A stretch of DNA of 64,000 nt, from positions 1 through 64,000 of the forward strand of contig JAJDBT010000114.1 of NCBI GenBank assembly GCA_029261215.1. The letters run 5' to 3'. Source of the DNA: Nitrospirota bacterium. Lineage in GTDB: Bacteria > Nitrospirota > Nitrospiria > SBBL01 > JAADHI01. Shown piece by piece: positions 7,776 through 63,474 of this stretch. Below the pieces are notes generated by a model. It saw only the letters and a program-made list of their open reading frames with translations, made no database searches and was not told the DNA's origin. How positions within the stretch are numbered: position 1 is the stretch's first letter; the number at the start of each line of letters is the position of its first letter. The translations under genes were made by a program, and so were the position numbers.

Positions 7776-8063
7776 TCACTGATGTCTCTCCATTAAGAAA
7801 CAGGGCTCCTCCGGGAGCAATCTTGTGGAAACAACGCCATGCAAGCCTTTTCTACGAAGCGCCCTCAAAAGAGCTTCCGCATACATTTCAGGAACGTCCA
7901 GGCTGATCTGTTTTGAATCCATTTCGAAAAATACCTGTCCTTTGAGAGTTCCTGCGAGGCTGATCATTTTAAGATAATCCTCACAAGTCAACTGACCAAC
8001 ATCTTCTGCCAGCTCAAGGTGAATATGCTTTTCTCGCATTCTTTTACGTTTTTGAACCGCCAT
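7776..8063 (-). CDS. Small conserved-looking hypothetical protein
   Basis: I do not recognise this 95-residue protein. The first 14 residues are very basic (MAVQKRKRMREK). The rest alternates acidic and hydrophobic segments, with no signal peptide, membrane helix or metal motif. A ribosome-binding site (AAGGAGTGAGG) precedes the ATG, and the gene ends at a strong palindromic terminator. It follows the globin gene on the same strand with a 109-base gap that contains an 11-base inverted repeat (8098-8108 and 8155-8165). It is therefore likely the last gene of the porin-cytochrome-globin transcription unit. Function unknown. Confidence 0.6.
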   Translation of the reverse strand: MAVQKRKRMREKHIHLELAEDVGQLTCEDYLKMISLAGTLKGQVFFEMDSKQISLDVPEMYAEALLRALRRKGLHGVVSTRLLPEEPCFLMERHQ

Positions 8064-8172
8064 ATCCTCACTCCTTATTGATGAAGAAGGTGATCGAAGC
8101 CCGGAAGGATCAGGGTATTTGGAAGGGGGGTGCAGGGTACCCTAAAAAAGAAGACCTTCCGGGCTATACGCA

Positions 8173-8583
8173 TCAAACATGCACCGCCGCATGTTTCATC
8201 GTCATCGACAAAACAAGGTAGAGTTCGGCCCATGCCGCTTCCACTTCTTCTGTGAACGATTCCCCCAGGCCCTTATTCAAGGTCCAGAGCAAAACCTCAC
8301 CGACAGTGTCGTAATCTTCATCTTTCACACCATAAGTCACATGTCTTCGGCCGAGATCCTCGACCACTGGAATCACACGATCCAGATTTTTTAAACTTAA
8401 AACCAGAATCTGAATCGTCGCCATCAATTTTTTCCCCTGCTCCTTTATATCTGAGGTAAACAGAGGTCTTAAACTTGGGTCCAACTCAAACAAGCGCGTA
8501 TAAAACATTTTCGCCGCTTCGTCCGCAATGGGAACAATGGCTTCAAAACTTTCCTGAACAAGAATAATTTGTCTTGGGGTCAT
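8173..8583 (-). CDS. Single-domain bacterial globin
   Basis: Haem-binding globin of the haemoglobin/flavohaemoglobin globin-domain type, without a reductase domain. Its 136 residues match one globin fold. The proximal histidine is in GRRHVTYGV and a B10 tyrosine is in AAKMFYTRLFELDP. The distal E7 position appears to be glutamine (KEQGKKL), as in Vitreoscilla haemoglobin. Proteins of this type bind oxygen or nitric oxide. A good AGGAG site precedes the ATG. It lies downstream of the haem lipoprotein and 11-haem cytochrome genes on the same strand, which suggests a link to NO or oxygen handling in that pathway. That link is inference. Confidence 0.88.
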   Translation of the reverse strand: MTPRQIILVQESFEAIVPIADEAAKMFYTRLFELDPSLRPLFTSDIKEQGKKLMATIQILVLSLKNLDRVIPVVEDLGRRHVTYGVKDEDYDTVGEVLLWTLNKGLGESFTEEVEAAWAELYLVLSMTMKHAAVHV

Positions 8584-8633
8584 CTTCTCCTCCTTTTTTT
8601 ATAAAGTACATATTGTATTGACTGCGTTTCTGC

Positions 8634-9227
8634 TTATGTGCCCAACGGAATACGAATCACCACCCCGCCCATCACATCCCCCAGCTTAAAGTCTGTTTTT
8701 GGACTGTCCTTATGATCGTTGTGGCAGCTGTAACAGGCGGGCGCTACAGCAATATCCGGATAAAGTGCGGTAAAATACTTTTTTCCGCCGAGCGTTTCTT
8801 CCGTGTAATAGCTTTTTCCGGTTTTGTTAATTTCTGCCAAACCGGTTTTTTCGGCTTCTGTTTTGGGTTCATTTTGCTTATTGACCGGCCAAAGCGAAAT
8901 CAGCGAATACGAAAAAGACACTTTGCCACTTTCGGCCACCCTTTCCGCTCCCATCCGAAACATCTGTGCGGGCAAAACCAGGGCCTTGTCATCTTTCCAG
9001 TGCTCGCTGGCCTTGATCACTTTTTCTTCATTTTGCAGCCGGTTTACAATCCATTTGGTATACACCGTCCGGTCCGCTTCCATCACGGCATGCAGTGAAT
9101 CGGCCATCACCTGCGGACTAATGCCAGGGGGGGCGCTTTCCACTTTTGCCGTATTACACGCCGCCATATTGAACGTGACTACGCCAAGCAAGAATAATCT
9201 GGATAATTGCTTCATCTGCTGATTCAT
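8634..9227 (-). CDS. Monohaem c-type lipoprotein, Tll0287-like (DUF3365)
   Basis: A 197-residue exported protein. The N-terminus is a lipoprotein signal ending in MAAC, followed by a Tll0287/DUF3365-like sensor-type haem domain. The single c-haem motif CYSCH lies near residue 168, preceded by a segment typical of the family (YFTALYPDIAVAPACYSCHND). The C-terminus GDVMGGVVIRIPL also fits the family. It is probably anchored in a membrane facing the periplasm. It is the next gene after the 11-haem cytochrome (42-base gap) and may pass electrons or sense redox state. The catalytic role is unknown. Confidence 0.82.
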   Translation of the reverse strand: MNQQMKQLSRLFLLGVVTFNMAACNTAKVESAPPGISPQVMADSLHAVMEADRTVYTKWIVNRLQNEEKVIKASEHWKDDKALVLPAQMFRMGAERVAESGKVSFSYSLISLWPVNKQNEPKTEAEKTGLAEINKTGKSYYTEETLGGKKYFTALYPDIAVAPACYSCHNDHKDSPKTDFKLGDVMGGVVIRIPLGT

Positions 9228-9269
9228 TGTCTTCCTCCAACTATGGATGGCCTCAAGCCACCTCGTTTT

Positions 9270-10664
9270 TTATAAAGACCGTGAAGATTCACCGCGTCCT
9301 TCTTCCTGTTTTTTCTTTTTTTCGAAAACCCGTTTCTTTGCCCAATCAATGCTTTCGATATGGCGGCGGGGTTTTTCTGAAAAATTCCCTTTAATCAGCG
9401 CGACATCCGCCAGGGCGTCCATTGAAAAACGAAGACCGTGACAATTGAGACAGACCTCCCGAATCATCTTTTCGTTGGGCCGCAGGTTCCAGCTCTGGTT
9501 ATGCTGAACTTGTACCTGATCCACACCCTCCTCCCTATGAACAAAGCGCGGCATATGACAGCTCGCGCAGGAAACACCGCTTCCGGCCTTTTCAGAATCT
9601 GCCGCCTCATTTCGAAACAAAACGAAATGTGGGGAGGTCTCATAGGCCCGACTGTGCTCGTCGTCGTGACAGACAAGGCAGGCGTCGACCGCCGCCTTTC
9701 GGGTATCGAAGGCATGTGCGCCATGACACGACACACAGCCCATCGCCTTTTCCCCGGCATCATCCTTCATTCTCGCTTTCGCGATGTTGGGCGTCATTGC
9801 TGGCAGATCGCTGGCCAAACGCATGCCATGCTTTCCCGATAAAAAGCCTTTTACCTGGGTGTCGTGACAGGTTTTGCAGGCATGTTCATTCGGCGTGTTT
9901 TCCCATGCCTCAAGCCCCGTCTCCTGATTTTTGACTGTATGGCAGTCACTGCAATTCACACCGTTTTTCGCGTGAGCCGTGCCCGACCATTCCGCCATTA
10001 AATGAACATCTGCCTTCATTTCGAAAGAGGCATCGGCCTCAGCTTCAGTAAGCGGAGTAAGCGGGCGATTTGAAACCGGACGCACCGGACTTGTTTTTTT
10101 TCGAATGGCAACTTTTTGAATGGGCAGCATATCCGGCTCATCCGAATGTTTTAAAAGAAAGTCTTCATACAAAGCCCGGTTATCGTGAAAATTGTGACAA
10201 CCACCCGAAGCGCAAGTCTCAAAAGGCAGATCTTTGTGGCTGGGCCGATCCTTCGCGATATCCGCATGGCACAAAAAACAAAAATCCTGAGGCAGGGTCA
10301 CACCCATGGGGCCTGACATGTGAGGGCGATGCTCCCGATGACAGGTCACACAAAAACGGGCATCCAGCTTGGCCACACGCTCCGCATTTCTCGGATCGGT
10401 AAACTTTGATTTTGGATGGGAATCCTCCACAAGTTTCATTTCCTCTCCATGACAACTGATACAAGCGTCCTGCAGGACACCCGCTCCGCCAAAGGCTTTT
10501 TTGTGGCAAAGCGTGCAGGCCATCTCGATTTGATGATGGCCGTGTGTGGTCTCGCCCACCAAATAAATCGACTGATCCTCCCCGGACAGTTTGAGCCCAA
10601 AATACACAGCCATCGCAATACTCATCACACCCCATATCCACACTGTTTTTTTCGTGCGCATCAT
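9270..10664 (-). CDS. Membrane-anchored 11-haem cytochrome c
   Basis: A 464-residue multihaem cytochrome with one N-terminal membrane helix (residues about 7-24) and no clear signal-peptidase site, so it is probably anchored in the inner membrane and faces the periplasm. I count ten CXXCH motifs (for example CTLCH, CISCH, CVTCH, CFLCH, CSDCH, CKTCH, CVSCH, CLVCH, CASCH, CLNCH). One more site, CASGGCH, has CX4CH spacing. It overlaps no catalytic family I know, so an electron-carrier role is most likely. The start is directly after the stop of the flavin/haem-b fusion gene, which strongly suggests that protein is its electron donor. The tail is rich in lysine and glutamate. Confidence 0.88.
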   Translation of the reverse strand: MMRTKKTVWIWGVMSIAMAVYFGLKLSGEDQSIYLVGETTHGHHQIEMACTLCHKKAFGGAGVLQDACISCHGEEMKLVEDSHPKSKFTDPRNAERVAKLDARFCVTCHREHRPHMSGPMGVTLPQDFCFLCHADIAKDRPSHKDLPFETCASGGCHNFHDNRALYEDFLLKHSDEPDMLPIQKVAIRKKTSPVRPVSNRPLTPLTEAEADASFEMKADVHLMAEWSGTAHAKNGVNCSDCHTVKNQETGLEAWENTPNEHACKTCHDTQVKGFLSGKHGMRLASDLPAMTPNIAKARMKDDAGEKAMGCVSCHGAHAFDTRKAAVDACLVCHDDEHSRAYETSPHFVLFRNEAADSEKAGSGVSCASCHMPRFVHREEGVDQVQVQHNQSWNLRPNEKMIREVCLNCHGLRFSMDALADVALIKGNFSEKPRRHIESIDWAKKRVFEKKKKQEEGRGESSRSL

Positions 10665-12635
10665 CTAAAAAAAGTAAACCGACATCATGTGAAAAATAAG
10701 CAGTACAGGTAGCGGCCACGACATATAAATATGCAGCTTATTCCCCCAACGTCGGGCAACAGGTCCAAAATTCGGGTTCATCCTCCCCTCCAGTGCCGCG
10801 ATGCCACCGGCCAGGGTTCCCAGGGCAGTTGCGGCTAAAAAAGACAGCATCAGTGCCAAATTAAGATTTGATCCCAGAGAAAGCCCGGTGTGCAGTACCA
10901 AAATTCCTAACATCAATAACCCGATGATGGTGTGCACCATCCGCCACGCGCCGAAACTGCCCAGTCTAAAAAATTTCAGGCGTTTTTTTGCGGACAACAG
11001 CAAGCTTAAAATCGAAAGCCCCAGCAAGTGATAACCCGTCACTTGTTTCCAAAACCCATCCAGCCACAACGTCTCAAGCTTCCAGGCCCCCTGAACCGTT
11101 TTAGAAAGAGGAATGGACGGAAAACTCAAAACAGTGAAAACCAACACTGCGGCGGCAATTGAAATGCCCAGCAAATTTTTCAAAACAGGCTGCGGCCGTT
11201 TTAAAAACGGGGCACCGCACAAATCGGCCAGGAGCGGCTTACACCCGCCGCACATGCGGGACGCACCCGTTTCCGCCGCCAGTTTTTCAAGGGAGGTGCA
11301 TCCCCCCTGAATCAGGCGGCTGAGCGTCCCGCGTGTAATACCGAGACATTGACAGACCACCGCCGCTTCCGGCCAGGCCAAGACGTGCGATTGTTGATCT
11401 GAATACACCTGACCCGTGTAAAGAAAATGGATCACCTGAAAAATCGAAATCCGGTTCTGACGTTTGACCGCCTCTTGAAGACGACTCAGTTCCGGCCATT
11501 CCCCCAGTACAATCAAACCCCGCAACCCCCCCTGATTCAAAATCAACTTACGATAGATGCCTTCTTTTGAGTTTTGATAGATCGGGTTGCGCAGTAAAAG
11601 TCGGCTTTCCTCATTTTCGACTTCGCCCATACTAAATACCTGGGTTCGGATATTTTTAAGTCGTGTTGCGGAAACCGAACCGGTGAAACGGCTCTCACGC
11701 CTTAATATTGCACCGGCTGCGACTTCGGCCTGCTCCAGGCCCGGAGCCACCAGACGGTAAACCATACCCCGATGTTGTGCGCATTCGCCCACGGCATAGA
11801 CTTGTTTCGCCGAGGTTTCCATATAATCATTCACAATAATGCCCTGGCCTATTCTTAGCCCGGCTGTTTTTGCCAGGCTGGTATTGGCCTGAACACCTGT
11901 GGCAAGAATCAGGGTATCGCAATCAATCGTCTGGCCCTGCCAAAGTTGAACGCCCATCACCTGCTCAACGCCAAAAATGGTTTTAATCCCTTCAGAGAGA
12001 TAAAACTCGATTCCAAGGCGCGTCATTTCTGCCTGCAAAAGACTGCTCGCACGTTTGTCCAGTTGCCGGCTCATCAGGCGAACATTGTGATCCACAAGCG
12101 ATACCGCCGCACCGCCGCCTTGCATCGCCAAAGCGCTTTCCAATCCCAGCGCACCGCCTCCAAGCACGACCATCCCACGACCCGGCTTCCGGCGCTCCAG
12201 GAGCGCTCGGGCATCGTTCAAATTGCGAAAAGTAAACACGCCCGGCAAAGAAATGCCGGGCGTGTAATAACGGCGGGCCGAAGAACCTGTTGCAAGCACC
12301 AGGGCGACATAAGATTCAACACGACCTGCAGCATCGGTGACGGTCTTTGATTTTGGGTCAATGCGGAGCACCGCACATCCACGGCGCTCTAAAACAGACG
12401 CCTCTTTCAAGAGATCACCAGAATAATAAATCGCCTGCTCCGGCACGTCTCCGGCAATAAACTCCGAGAGCCGCGCACGCTGATAAGGCGCATCCGGCTC
12501 ATCCCCGTATATCAAAACGGGCAGATCGGGATTACCCTTTAAAAGCAAGGCCGCCGTGCGCATCCCGACCGGCCCGGCCCCGACAATAATCACCGCCCAT
12601 TTTTTTGGATCGACTGCTTCTTTTTGAATCATCAT
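10665..12635 (-). CDS. FAD/[2Fe-2S]/di-haem-b transmembrane oxidoreductase fusion
   Basis: A 656-residue fusion. Residues about 12-400 are a NirB-like FAD-dependent NAD(P)H oxidoreductase with two dinucleotide-binding motifs (VGAGPVGMRTA near 18, LGGGALGLE near 158) and the FAD motif VYAVGEC near 280. Residues about 425-475 are a BFD-like [2Fe-2S] domain with C428, C430, C462 and C465. Residues about 485-656 form five membrane helices. Helix 3 carries H568-X13-H582 and helix 5 carries H635-X13-H649, the spacing that binds two stacked b haems in ferric reductase/NADPH oxidase proteins. It should carry electrons from cytoplasmic NAD(P)H across the membrane. The next gene is the 11-haem cytochrome. 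It overlaps the upstream gene by four bases (ATGA). The partner and substrate are inferred. Confidence 0.85.
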   Translation of the reverse strand: MMIQKEAVDPKKWAVIIVGAGPVGMRTAALLLKGNPDLPVLIYGDEPDAPYQRARLSEFIAGDVPEQAIYYSGDLLKEASVLERRGCAVLRIDPKSKTVTDAAGRVESYVALVLATGSSARRYYTPGISLPGVFTFRNLNDARALLERRKPGRGMVVLGGGALGLESALAMQGGGAAVSLVDHNVRLMSRQLDKRASSLLQAEMTRLGIEFYLSEGIKTIFGVEQVMGVQLWQGQTIDCDTLILATGVQANTSLAKTAGLRIGQGIIVNDYMETSAKQVYAVGECAQHRGMVYRLVAPGLEQAEVAAGAILRRESRFTGSVSATRLKNIRTQVFSMGEVENEESRLLLRNPIYQNSKEGIYRKLILNQGGLRGLIVLGEWPELSRLQEAVKRQNRISIFQVIHFLYTGQVYSDQQSHVLAWPEAAVVCQCLGITRGTLSRLIQGGCTSLEKLAAETGASRMCGGCKPLLADLCGAPFLKRPQPVLKNLLGISIAAAVLVFTVLSFPSIPLSKTVQGAWKLETLWLDGFWKQVTGYHLLGLSILSLLLSAKKRLKFFRLGSFGAWRMVHTIIGLLMLGILVLHTGLSLGSNLNLALMLSFLAATALGTLAGGIAALEGRMNPNFGPVARRWGNKLHIYMSWPLPVLLIFHMMSVYFF

Positions 12636-13492
12636 TTCACCTGATTTTGCACCAACAATGTTTTCTCGACCTGTTTCCCCTCTGACAGAATGACCGCTTC
12701 ACTCACGGCGGCTCCGGGAAGCACATCTTCCGGAAGGCGTGCATGCTGCTCCAGAATTTCGTAGATGCGTTTAAAGCGGGAAACCTCTTCCTTGGAAGAC
12801 ACCTTTTTCCCGTAATAAATGCCAAACAAGGGGCTGCGCAGAATGAGCGGTCCGCCATCAAAAAGAACAAAATTGATCGGCATTTCGACCTGTTCTGCAC
12901 CAGAAAGGTGCACGTCATCCCACATCGCGATACGCACATCAATCCCGTCCTTCAACTGGTTGCGAATCGTCAGGAGCACTTCCGCATTCAGCAAGTCCAG
13001 CGGGCGAAGAACAAAGATGCGGCGGATGGCAATGCCAGAACAATGCGCCCGCACCTGATCGCGGTAATAGTTTTTCTTTTGCACCTTCCCCATCCAGTCT
13101 GCAATCTCGATGGAGTTAACCGCCCGCACCTCTTTTTTACAATCGGCCAGCGACTGGCTGGCTTCATAATAATATTCGGCTTCCGTCAGCGGGATGGCCC
13201 CCTCGCTCAGCATTTTCAAAAGGCTTTCCGTCATGCCCATGAAACTCCGGCCTTTTGAAGCCCTTACCGGATCATCTAACTGATCCATCAACGCATCCAA
13301 GGGATGCACGGACATAAAGAGTTTCTTGAAACGGTTCTCGATCTGCTCCAGCTTGTGCATAATCAAAGAAACGCTCAGGGCCAGTAACAAACCCACACCA
13401 AAAACGGTATAGGCTTCTTTTTCCATGTGAAGCCCGAAATGAAACGCAAGGGCAATACTCGAAGCCAAAAGAAATTCGATCAAGCTGTGCAT
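12632..13492 (-). CDS. Membrane-anchored protein of unknown function
   Basis: I do not recognise this 286-residue protein. Two hydrophobic helices (residues about 3-22 and 28-45) are followed by a basic, amphipathic linker (HKLEQIENRFKKLF) and a soluble domain of about 220 residues that should lie in the cytoplasm. The soluble part has alternating beta/alpha character with phrases such as IAIRRIFVLRPLDLLN and DGIDVRIAMWDD. These recall PLD-like or sensor-type domains found in bacterial regulators, but no catalytic HKD motif is visible. It overlaps the flavin fusion by four bases, so it is co-translated with it and may be a regulatory or assembly partner. Confidence 0.65.
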   Translation of the reverse strand: MHSLIEFLLASSIALAFHFGLHMEKEAYTVFGVGLLLALSVSLIMHKLEQIENRFKKLFMSVHPLDALMDQLDDPVRASKGRSFMGMTESLLKMLSEGAIPLTEAEYYYEASQSLADCKKEVRAVNSIEIADWMGKVQKKNYYRDQVRAHCSGIAIRRIFVLRPLDLLNAEVLLTIRNQLKDGIDVRIAMWDDVHLSGAEQVEMPINFVLFDGGPLILRSPLFGIYYGKKVSSKEEVSRFKRIYEILEQHARLPEDVLPGAAVSEAVILSEGKQVEKTLLVQNQVK

Positions 13493-13567
13493 AAAACGGA
13501 CTCCCTGCAGATTTGAATCGTTTGAGCTTTCATTTTTTCACACCCCCAAAACACGACTTTCAAGCCT

Positions 13568-14890
13568 TTAGAACTTGAGCTCTGCCATGAGCCAAAGCTT
13601 GTCGGTATCGACAGCGGTTCCCCCGCTGTTCGCCGGATCGCTGTTCGCGTTATACTTCGCATACTTAATCCCGACGAGCGTGTGCTCGGAGAGGTTTTTA
13701 AGCGCGAGCAGGTCAAGCTCTGTCCCGTAGTCTATGTCCGCCTTGTCCGAGGTAAAAAGATGATAGACCGCCACCAGCTTCACCCCGACGACATTACCGG
13801 ACAAGGTGAAAAAGAGATCTTCCACGCCGTTGACCGGCGTGACCAGAAATTTATCCGCCCAACCCTGAAAGGCATGCAGGGTGGCCAATGGTGTTTGGAA
13901 GGCATAGGTACCGTCGCCTCCCAACACTTCGTAACTCACTTTAAGCGCCGCGCCTTTCATTGAGGCACCCAATTCTCCAAAGAGGTAATCGGCATCCACC
14001 GTTGCAGGGCCATCCGCATAATCGCTTTGATCGGCATATTCTGCCGTATAGAGCAGTGTCATCCCAGCTCCGACCGGAATTGCCCCATTTAAACGAAGGC
14101 CAAGGGTTTTATTCGACGATAAAGCCACATCATCAAAATCCAGCAAGTAGGCATACGCCGAGGCATTCAAAGCGGGCATGCCGCTGTACGCAAGATTGAC
14201 CAAGTGCGAATCCATGCGAAAATTAGCACTCGGGGCGGCGAGGCTCACCCCGATGTCAGTCGGATGATGCGCCCCAAAAATACGATTGACGTTTTCGAGG
14301 TAAATATAGGTTCCGCTCAAACCCGCCATCGGGCTAAAAGCCAGCCGCAGGGCATCAAAGGTCTGTTCATTTTGCCGCCAGCCGACATTCCCGACAAAAC
14401 GGTCATTGTCGAGCTTGATGCGTTGACGCCCTCCTGTAAGGGTCAGGCCTTCCACACCTGTCCATTGAAGATAGGCCTGGTTCAATTCCGTATCTTCCGG
14501 GTCGGCCACAACGGGGTATTGTGACTTCCCGTTGGCTGAGCTGTTGTACTGCTCATTGCCAATCACCGTGACATCCTCAAATTCGAGAAAACCCGAAACT
14601 CCCATAAACACCCCGGTCTTGTAACCCAAGCGGCTGCGCAGGGTAGAGGCATTGGCATTTTTAGGAAGGCCCGCTTGATCGACCCCCTCGTATCGGTAAC
14701 GCACATCCAGACTCACTTTTCCCGTCGTGAGCGCCTCTGAAAGACTCGCGGCCAAAACAGGAACGGCACTTCCCGCCAGCACCATAAAAACAAACAGGAA
14801 CAACACACTTCGGGAGAATGCCCCTGGGCATTGTTTTTCCTGGGACTTCAACAGGGAGTATTTTGGGGTGATCTCACTTCCTTTTTTCAT
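13568..14890 (-). CDS. Outer-membrane beta-barrel porin, alginate-export-like
   Basis: A 440-residue outer-membrane protein. A signal peptide with an extended N-region ends near VLAASLSEAL (residue about 48). The mature part alternates polar and hydrophobic residues with aromatic girdles, and ends in phenylalanine (LMAELKF) as expected for BAM-dependent barrels. VSLDVRYRYEGVDQ and LTLTGGRQRIKLDNDRFVG resemble the alginate-export porin family. Its role could be solute passage or housing a cytochrome. It is the first gene of the minus-strand operon with the cytochromes. Its leader contains an operator-like palindrome (14980-14999) and a terminator-like hairpin (14918-14970). An AGGAGG site precedes the ATG. 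Confidence 0.85.
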   Translation of the reverse strand: MKKGSEITPKYSLLKSQEKQCPGAFSRSVLFLFVFMVLAGSAVPVLAASLSEALTTGKVSLDVRYRYEGVDQAGLPKNANASTLRSRLGYKTGVFMGVSGFLEFEDVTVIGNEQYNSSANGKSQYPVVADPEDTELNQAYLQWTGVEGLTLTGGRQRIKLDNDRFVGNVGWRQNEQTFDALRLAFSPMAGLSGTYIYLENVNRIFGAHHPTDIGVSLAAPSANFRMDSHLVNLAYSGMPALNASAYAYLLDFDDVALSSNKTLGLRLNGAIPVGAGMTLLYTAEYADQSDYADGPATVDADYLFGELGASMKGAALKVSYEVLGGDGTYAFQTPLATLHAFQGWADKFLVTPVNGVEDLFFTLSGNVVGVKLVAVYHLFTSDKADIDYGTELDLLALKNLSEHTLVGIKYAKYNANSDPANSGGTAVDTDKLWLMAELKF

Positions 14891-14917: not shown

Positions 14918-14970
14918 TAAAAAAAGGCGCACTTTCCAATGACCCACATCATTGTGGAAAGAACGCCTTT
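14918..14970 (-). promoter_or_regulatory. Terminator-like hairpin in porin leader, possible attenuator
   Basis: On the minus strand, AAAGGCG and CTTTCC pair with GGAAAG and CGCCTTT, and an inner AATGA/TCATT pair encloses TGTGGG. The stem ends directly in a run of U residues. It sits between the operator-like site and the porin start codon, so it would stop most transcripts before the operon unless bypassed. A competing small stem, ACGC-AAAG-GCGT, overlaps its 5' side. Confidence 0.55.
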
Positions 14971-14979
14971 GCGTCAGCC

Positions 14980-14999
14980 CAAATACAACACTGTATTTG
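14980..14999. promoter_or_regulatory. Operator-like palindrome upstream of porin operon
   Basis: CAAATACA and TGTATTTG form perfect 8-base arms around ACAC. The 18-base core 14981-14998 matches 15472-15489 at 14 of 18 positions. The two copies lie 91 and 92 bases upstream of the porin and DUF2292 start codons. This suggests one regulator for both units. The regulator is not in the window as far as I can tell. Confidence 0.5.
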
Positions 15000-15051
15000 T
15001 AATAAAATGATTCGTCAGAAGCCCCGTGCTTTGGCCTCTTCTCCCGCACAT

Positions 15052-15093
15052 AAAAAAAGGCCAGGCACCTTCTATTCGATTAGCGCCTGGCCT
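15052..15093 (-). terminator. Rho-independent terminator of DUF2292 gene
   Basis: AGGCCAGGC (15058-15066) and GCCTGGCCT (15085-15093) form a 9-base GC-rich stem. On the minus strand it is followed by seven U residues (A run at 15052-15058). It lies about 87 bases past the DUF2292 stop codon and separates that gene from the porin operon. Confidence 0.85.
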
Positions 15094-15179: not shown

Positions 15180-15380
15180 CTACTTCATGCGTCTCTTTTC
15201 AATCGTGTCAATCTGGACTATCTTTGCATCCTGAATTTTAATCTCCACCGATCCATGACGTACCTGTGCAATGCATTCAATTAACTGCGCCATCACCTGC
15301 GGCGTCATACTTGCGGGCAAAACACTCAGATCAAACGTGTCCTTCACTCCGCACATTGTACTTTCTCGTAAATCCCGCAT
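15180..15380 (-). CDS. DUF2292 (YezD-like) small protein
   Basis: A 66-residue protein. Its C-terminal half has the DUF2292 pattern of small YezD-like proteins: helix LIECIAQVRHGSVEI, then strand IKIQDAKIVQIDTIEKRR. The biochemical role of the family is not known to me. I chose the ATG at 15380 because AAAGGG lies five bases upstream; a GTG two codons earlier is also possible. An operator-like site at 15472-15489 is 92 bases upstream, the same distance as the similar site before the porin operon, which suggests co-regulation. A strong terminator follows. Confidence 0.7.
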   Translation of the reverse strand: MRDLRESTMCGVKDTFDLSVLPASMTPQVMAQLIECIAQVRHGSVEIKIQDAKIVQIDTIEKRRMK

Positions 15381-63069: not shown

Positions 63070-63474
63070 TCAGTTTTGCTCAAGGGCTTCATACCCTTTA
63101 TACAGAATATTTTCTTCCTTGGTGATTCGAATGGAAAGCGTCCCGCTCAGCCGGCCAAAGTCTCGGGCAAATTCAACTCCGGAACCACCATTTGAATATT
63201 TTTCAAAAAAATCTAATGCCGCTTTCGAGATCCCCGACATATCCGAGGCGTACATCGCCAACGTCCTTTTTAAGGGTGCGTCGTTTTCCGCCTTTTCTCT
63301 CAGCACGGGATAGAGTGCTTCATCTTCTTTTTTGAGATGTGCAAGTAAGCCCTTTTTAGCCAACAAGAGTGTCTCCTGACCTTCCTTTGTCGTAATGCCC
63401 AACTTCTTGACTTTTGCCAGTGTTGCAACAATCACAGCATGATCTTTTTTTAAAGCTTCGATCAATTGAGACAT
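63070..63474 (-). CDS. Hemerythrin HHE-domain protein
   Basis: A 134-residue helical protein of the hemerythrin-like HHE type. The likely di-iron ligands are H12 (LKKDHAVI), H46 and E50 (LLAHLKKEDEALYP), and a C-terminal glutamate in ITKEENILY. Such proteins bind oxygen or nitric oxide or help repair iron-sulfur sites. A GGGGGAAA site precedes the ATG. It converges on gcvPB and is divergent from nothing known, so no functional link to neighbours is evident. Confidence 0.85.
   Translation of the reverse strand: MSQLIEALKKDHAVIVATLAKVKKLGITTKEGQETLLLAKKGLLAHLKKEDEALYPVLREKAENDAPLKRTLAMYASDMSGISKAALDFFEKYSNGGSGVEFARDFGRLSGTLSIRITKEENILYKGYEALEQN

Follow-up and report, generated by a model that had tools for sequence, protein, structure and literature searches.

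The window, the whole 64,000-nucleotide stretch analyzed here, is part of contig JAJDBT010000114.1 from a Nitrospirota bacterium (assembly GCA_029261215.1). The genome holding it measures 3.37 Mb. Seven minus-strand ORFs occupy positions 7776 to 14890 (Table 1), and ORF calls together with Pfam searches confirmed the positions and domain content that a sequence-only reading of the window had listed. The porin and membrane protein genes are separated by 75 bp, the membrane protein and fusion genes overlap by 4 bp, the fusion and cytochrome genes abut (0 bp), and the remaining spacers are 42 bp (cytochrome/Tll0287), 50 bp (Tll0287/globin), and 109 bp (globin/95-aa gene). From this spacing and the shared strand, we infer that the seven ORFs probably form an operon. 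The tight packing agrees with the seven-gene operon of the sequence-only reading, but only fusion-cytochrome-Tll0287, with or without the globin, is broadly conserved. The unit is a three-gene core of the fusion, the 11-haem cytochrome, and the Tll0287 protein, to which a usual globin and optional extras are added.

TABLE 1 Genes and leader of the unit in the window
Feature	Positions	Strand	Status and basis
Alginate_exp/Opr-type porin, 440 aa	13568..14890	-	optional; Pfam
Membrane protein, no Pfam family, 286 aa	12632..13492	-	optional; overlaps start of fusion by 4 bp
Fusion, 656 aa	10665..12635	-	core; Pfam, NCBIfam, conserved ligands
11-haem cytochrome c, 464 aa, N-terminal membrane anchor	9270..10664	-	core; Pfam, haem motifs
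Tll0287/sCache_heme monohaem lipoprotein, 197 aa	8634..9227	-	core; Pfam
Single-domain 3/3 globin, 136 aa, without signal peptide	8173..8583	-	usual partner; Pfam
95-aa protein, no Pfam family	7776..8063	-	doubtful member; relative only in L003
Leader with hairpins	14925..15092	-	possible antitermination site
DUF2292 mini-protein, 66 aa, upstream of leader	15180..15380	-	DUF2292 1.9e-12; membership uncertain

The fusion protein runs from a NirB-type FAD/NADH domain through Rubredoxin_C and BFD [2Fe-2S] domains to five membrane helices (Pfam: Pyr_redox_2, 2.9e-51; Rubredoxin_C, 8e-12; Fer2_BFD, 7.8e-9). Positions 2 to 465 match the NirB family TIGR02374 with 329 bits, below the family cutoff of 578. 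The BFD cysteines C428, C430, C462, and C465 are invariant in the alignment, and in 8 of the 9 sequences compared, the second NAD-binding strand closes with an acidic residue, which suggests use of NADH, not NADPH. The C-terminal half shows five hydrophobic peaks, with positive charge on two predicted cytoplasmic loops, and the invariant H-X13-H pairs H568/H582 and H635/H649 in helices 3 and 5 fit the ligands of two b haems. Pfam assigned the membrane domain in 27 members to DUF4405 (18), b561 (4), or Ferric_reduct (3; best 5e-4), all with weak affinity, and a PDB search with this domain found no relative. The FAD/NADH/BFD front half is common to the fusion and the assimilatory nitrite reductase NirB, whereas the sirohaem/[4Fe-4S] half of NirB is missing and a membrane haem b domain stands in its place. 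We also considered the fusion as a replacement for NirB and rejected this role, as a true NirB is present in most hosts. Ferric reductases and NOX enzymes resemble the fusion in having two H-X13-H pairs in helices 3 and 5 and a cytoplasmic flavin/NADH input; however, their flavin part is of the FNR type, while that of the fusion is of the NirB type with a [2Fe-2S] center and the acceptor would be a multihaem cytochrome, and the Pfam match to ferric reductases is weak and limited to 3 of the 27 members.

The cytochrome (Pfam: Cytochrom_c3_2, 1.1e-17) has 11 haem sites, ten CXXCH motifs and one CX4CH motif (CASGGCH), and its N-terminal anchor shows no evident cleavage site when judged by eye. 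Five haems lie in a c3-like N-terminal half and six in the C-terminal half. Across 29 sequences, the invariant histidines comprise the 11 of the motifs and exactly 11 others, of which five fall in the five-haem half and six in the six-haem half. Because the 11 invariant non-CXXCH histidines match the 11 haems in number, the simplest reading is that the cytochrome is a predicted all-bis-His wire and not a nitrite reductase. The C-terminal half appears to be distantly related to NrfA, the eight-haem nitrite reductase (ONR), and HAO: profile comparisons aligned short segments, with E values from about 6e-9 to 3e-8, and Foldseek returned one weak useful match, to HAO (E value of 9e-4; TM score of 0.3), using a structural model whose pLDDT was 42 from 9 sequences and 68.6 from 29, with the N-terminal half still unreliable. 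The catalytic haem of NrfA enzymes is bound by CXXCK, or by CXXCH with its distal side open. The cytochrome, by comparison, has no CXXCK haem, carries a fused five-haem N-terminal half, and has a matching invariant histidine for each haem, so that an open distal side is unlikely. The sequence-only reading had allowed that it might prove to be a known enzyme such as a nitrite reductase; given the lack of CXXCK and the one invariant non-motif histidine per haem, we rejected an NrfA-like enzyme.

The lipoprotein matches the Tll0287-like family (PF11845; 1.2e-21), and its CXXCH motif is invariant in the family alignment. It is the most conserved member of the set, with a mean identity to the window protein of 61%, compared with 55% for the globin, 48% for the cytochrome, and 42% for the fusion. 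PDB searches with the Tll0287 protein yielded nothing usable for placing a distal haem ligand. The PF11845 domain with a CXXCH-bound haem c is shared with the sCache_heme family (Tll0287/DUF3365) (PMC12889525). Characterized stand-alone sCache_heme proteins use a cysteine axial ligand, behave in a redox-like manner, and have so far been regarded as redox proteins and not as binders of nitric oxide (NO), whereas a relative without this cysteine binds NO tightly (PMC12889525). The Tll0287 protein of the unit also stands alone, but it lacks the cysteine ligand, no cysteine outside CXXCH being conserved in the family of the core, and it differs further in being encoded beside an NADH-linked cytochrome unit.

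The globin (Pfam, 8e-16) appears to be a single-domain 3/3 globin of the NO dioxygenase type. Residues Y28, Q49, and H81 are conserved in 21 sequences and correspond to Tyr B10, Gln E7, and His F8 when positioned by eye against flavohaemoglobin; the closest PDB relatives are the bacterial globins 3wfw and 3s1i. Where a single-domain globin is missing, a truncated globin is present in two loci (L137 and L163) and a hemerythrin-like gene lies beside two others (L138 and L139). A gas-binding protein may recur in the absence of the globin, and some of the 38 loci examined carry none.

These comparisons cover 38 other loci from Nitrospirota and from Gamma- and Alphaproteobacteria, and the named supporting genomes are mostly metagenome assembled. 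Full-length relatives of the fusion occur in Nitrospiria, Muproteobacteria, Thiogranum, Hyphomicrobiaceae, and another gammaproteobacterium, and each is accompanied by the 11-haem cytochrome, a Tll0287 protein, and a globin. An NADH-type fusion adjoins the cytochrome in 32 of the 38 loci (two of them cut by contig ends); four loci hold a fusion variant with a GPP34 domain in place of the NADH part, another is cut off by the contig end, and the last has the cytochrome alone. Tll0287 is present in 35/38 loci and the single-domain globin in 22/38. The fusion, cytochrome, and Tll0287 protein are a recurring unit that is kept together across phyla, and the conserved synteny that the sequence-only reading had put forward as a check was found in distant phyla. 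The remaining genes are more restricted. Relatives of the porin (Pfam: Alginate_exp, 1.6e-8) occur in seven of the 38 loci, one of them weak. Those of the 286-aa membrane protein were found only in L003, a same-genus locus on a Nitrospiria MAG contig (81% identity), and in L074 (49%), where the gene adjoins a porin and NrtABC, and the 95-aa protein has a recognizable relative only in L003 (38%). The last two are lineage-limited extras.

The cytochrome was detected in 3 of 270 genomes of the class to which the window belongs, in 27 of 369 sampled Gammaproteobacteria, and in 4 of 385 genomes of the class that includes the Hyphomicrobiaceae. Because this spread is patchy, it suggests horizontal transfer, and given the Gammaproteobacterial count, cultured hosts may exist. 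No plasmid carrying the cytochrome was found at an E value of ≤1e-20.

Its gene neighborhoods tie the unit to assimilatory nitrate metabolism. Nitrate-assimilation genes (NrtABC, an ANTAR regulator, NarK, NirBD, and NasA/NapA) neighbor it at 17 of the 38 loci, as called with NCBIfam and Pfam: the nitrate ABC transporter ATPase scored above the cutoff (TIGR01184; 351 bits), the NarK-like MFS protein was a best match under the cutoff, and ANTAR response regulators were also identified. At L129, the unit shares one stretch with NasA, NirD, NirB, NrtABC, and ANTAR genes, and at L125, it lies with NrtABC and a NapA gene. An ANTAR gene is adjacent to the unit in 12 cases, which is far beyond chance since most hosts have only a single ANTAR gene. 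NirB was found in 22 of 27 cytochrome-bearing Gammaproteobacteria versus 140 of 342 others (P = 6.3e-5, uncorrected for genome kinship). About half of the 38 loci have no nitrate neighbors, and neither does the unit in the window; NasA and NirBD of its genome lie on another contig. Copper nitrite reductase, which is one source of periplasmic NO, was above the cutoff in 1 of 32 host genomes.

Two characterized systems come closest. In Bradyrhizobium japonicum, mutants showed that the narK-bjgb-flp-nasC operon, under NasS-NasT (ANTAR) control, provides NO defense through a globin and a flavoprotein (PMC4724949). As described there, a single-domain globin and an FAD/NAD(P)H flavoprotein are encoded beside nitrate transport and assimilation genes, as in our unit; however, Flp is a cytoplasmic flavoprotein (PMC4724949), and the operon is not known to include a haem b membrane protein, a cytochrome with many haems, or a member of the Tll0287 family. 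The SHP operon encodes a cytochrome b, diheme cytochromes c, and the sphaeroides haem protein, for which NO dioxygenase activity has been reported, and it resembles our unit in that a membrane cytochrome b supplies electrons, by way of c haems, to a haem protein of the periplasm that binds ligands (PMC2909971). Its proposed donor is quinol and its carrier a diheme cytochrome, in contrast to NADH and an 11-haem cytochrome in our unit (PMC2909971). SHP is also not a Tll0287 protein, whereas the periplasmic monohaem protein of the unit belongs to PF11845, and no Pfam match to an SHP or diheme cytochrome domain was obtained among the seven window proteins. We found no description of this gene combination in the open-access literature (subscription papers lay outside the search); within that scope, this real and widespread gene set, a proposed electron-export unit, is undescribed.

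Our preferred reading, which we hold tentatively and place a little short of an even chance, is that the unit is an NADH-driven inner-membrane electron exporter in bacteria that assimilate nitrate, most likely serving NO defense. The cytoplasmic NirB-type domain would oxidize NADH, passing electrons to FAD and then to the [2Fe-2S] center, and the two b haems of the fusion would carry them across the inner membrane. From there, the membrane-tethered cytochrome would lead the electrons out to the periplasm, where they would probably end on the Tll0287 protein. Periplasmic NO or a related nitrogen oxide would then be handled by Tll0287, and cytoplasmic NO by the globin. Homology and protein anatomy lead us to infer an outward flow from NADH, because the fusion has a NirB half and the membrane potential favors electrons leaving the cytoplasm. 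The sequence-only reading had proposed such a route from NAD(P)H to the periplasm, and the domain order, topology, conserved ligands, and conserved synteny support it. It had also suggested a link to nitrogen oxides, which the nitrate-assimilation neighbors support in part; that NO or nitrite accepts the electrons is conjectural, and NO as the substrate and Tll0287 as the terminal site are likewise presumptive. NO is the most likely target: Tll0287 is the most conserved member and lacks the cysteine ligand, other gas-binding proteins may stand in for the globin at some loci, and B. japonicum offers a precedent. Against NO speak the current view of stand-alone sCache_heme proteins as redox proteins, the loci that have neither nitrate neighbors nor gas-binding proteins, the missing nitrate neighbor in the window, and the rarity of copper nitrite reductase among the hosts. 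More specifically, Tll0287 might be the enzyme of an NADH-dependent periplasmic NO/nitrite reductase system that is fed by the fusion and the 11-haem wire and acts with the cytoplasmic globin, which would clear NO from both the cytoplasm and the periplasm while nitrate is being assimilated; we consider this narrower version rather unlikely.

We regard as unlikely that the unit performs periplasmic nitrate or nitrite reduction for assimilation, with the cytochrome or Tll0287 reducing nitrite or the cytochrome feeding a periplasmic nitrate reductase. The nitrate-transport neighbors, the apparent distant relationship of the cytochrome C-terminal half to NrfA and the eight-haem nitrite reductase, the adjoining NapA in one genome, and the absence of NrfA from all 32 host genomes searched would fit such a path, but without CXXCK and with an invariant histidine for each haem, the cytochrome has no obvious open site, and most hosts already have a nitrite enzyme in true NirB. 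NapA is present in only 7 of the 32 hosts, and a general role of the cytochrome as NapA donor was rejected on this count. Somewhat less likely again is a redox valve that passes surplus NADH electrons via periplasmic cytochromes to a terminal oxidase or another sink, with an indirect link to nitrogen oxides. A class I cytochrome c gene between Tll0287 and the globin in many Gammaproteobacterial loci and the redox-like behavior of stand-alone sCache_heme proteins (PMC12889525) are consistent with a valve, which would, however, be wasteful in NADH-poor lithotrophs and leaves the ANTAR, NrtABC, and globin neighbors unexplained.

The sequence-only reading had also considered a route to the outer membrane. 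The porin gene within the unit and the DmsE/MtrA-like score of the cytochrome could point to a conduit in which the porin forms a sleeve and electrons reach acceptors that are solid or lie outside the cell, but MtrAB-type conduits pair a large MtrB porin with a soluble periplasmic cytochrome, whereas here the porin is small, of the Alginate_exp/Opr type, and optional, the cytochrome is anchored in the membrane at its N terminus, and the unit has no outer-surface cytochrome; we consider such a conduit highly improbable. Least probable is a reverse flow by which lithotrophs would drive electrons from the periplasm into the cell for the reduction of NAD+. Some named hosts (Thiogranum, Muproteobacteria, and Nitrospiria) are probably lithotrophs, but inward movement through haem b would oppose the membrane potential with no proton-coupled part in the unit, and NirB-type modules draw their electrons from NADH.

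If the preferred reading of an NADH-driven exporter serving NO defense is right, cytoplasmic NADH would be linked directly to periplasmic haem chemistry, while periplasmic cytochromes usually receive electrons via quinol. Stand-alone sCache_heme proteins would gain a testable electron partner, and NO defense in nitrate assimilation would gain a periplasmic arm.

The leader upstream of the porin folds into two terminator-like hairpins, at about 15059 to 15092 and 14925 to 14969 (the second approximate), with a fold z-score of -5.95. An ANTAR-controlled leader would be expected to have a pair of hexaloop hairpins with A1 and G4 in their loops, of which the second overlaps a terminator. Here, a hexaloop hairpin, CAAATAC-AGTGTT-GTATTTG, with A1 and G4 in the loop, lies at 14980 to 14999; the base of the terminator carries AAAGGCGT (AAAGGC), and the second hexaloop stem is weak. 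In the leader of the same-genus locus L003, the loops deviate at A1. A search of Rfam found no convincing match to the leader in the window, and a strict combined scan for a hexaloop and a terminator did not flag it. Within the window and the retrieved stretches, to which these statistics apply, hexaloop hairpins joined to terminators were found in several Gammaproteobacterial unit leaders and in the NasA and NirD leaders of the window's own genome, and shuffled windows gave zero matches in the same scan. ANTAR targets have been described as hexaloop hairpins coupled to terminators (PMC3369931), and ANTAR control of the unit in the window is plausible.

Departures from the main unit's layout were seen at several of the examined loci. 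At four of them (L156, L157, L158 and L162), the unit is a variant whose membrane haem-b part carries a fused GPP34 (GOLPH3-like) domain in place of the NADH domain. Truncated globins stand at the usual globin position in two loci, L137 and L163, and the one in L137 is followed by a 2Fe-2S/FAD/NAD reductase. L160 has a protein related at 37% identity to the 11-haem cytochrome, with neither the fusion nor the Tll0287 protein beside it.

A second, smaller unit lies shortly past the window end, with a succinate-dehydrogenase-like flavoprotein gene as its divergent neighbour. The hemerythrin-like gene that adjoins it repeats the gas-binding theme of the main unit's globin.

Upstream of the main unit, a strong terminator lies 3' of a DUF2292 mini-gene. 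The whole genome encodes a single ANTAR protein, on another contig (C76), whose long N-terminal part, judged by eye, reads as GAF-like repeats, not as a response-regulator domain.

Coordinates of the features (G000, the window's own genome; L, examined loci)
Feature	Position	Strand	Remark
DUF2292 mini-gene	window 15180-15380	-	immediately upstream of main unit
Hemerythrin-like protein	window 63073-63474	-	PF01814, 2.3e-10; adjoins second unit
Second unit	G000:C18:64115-66087 (= L086:8116-10088)		
Membrane protein	within second unit		163 aa; two H-X13-H pairs
Tll0287-like protein	within second unit		
c3-like cytochrome	within second unit		five haems
ANTAR protein	L141:421-1683		
Truncated globin	L137:6731-8074		
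Truncated globin	L163:10399-10752		
11-haem cytochrome relative	L160:9240-10556
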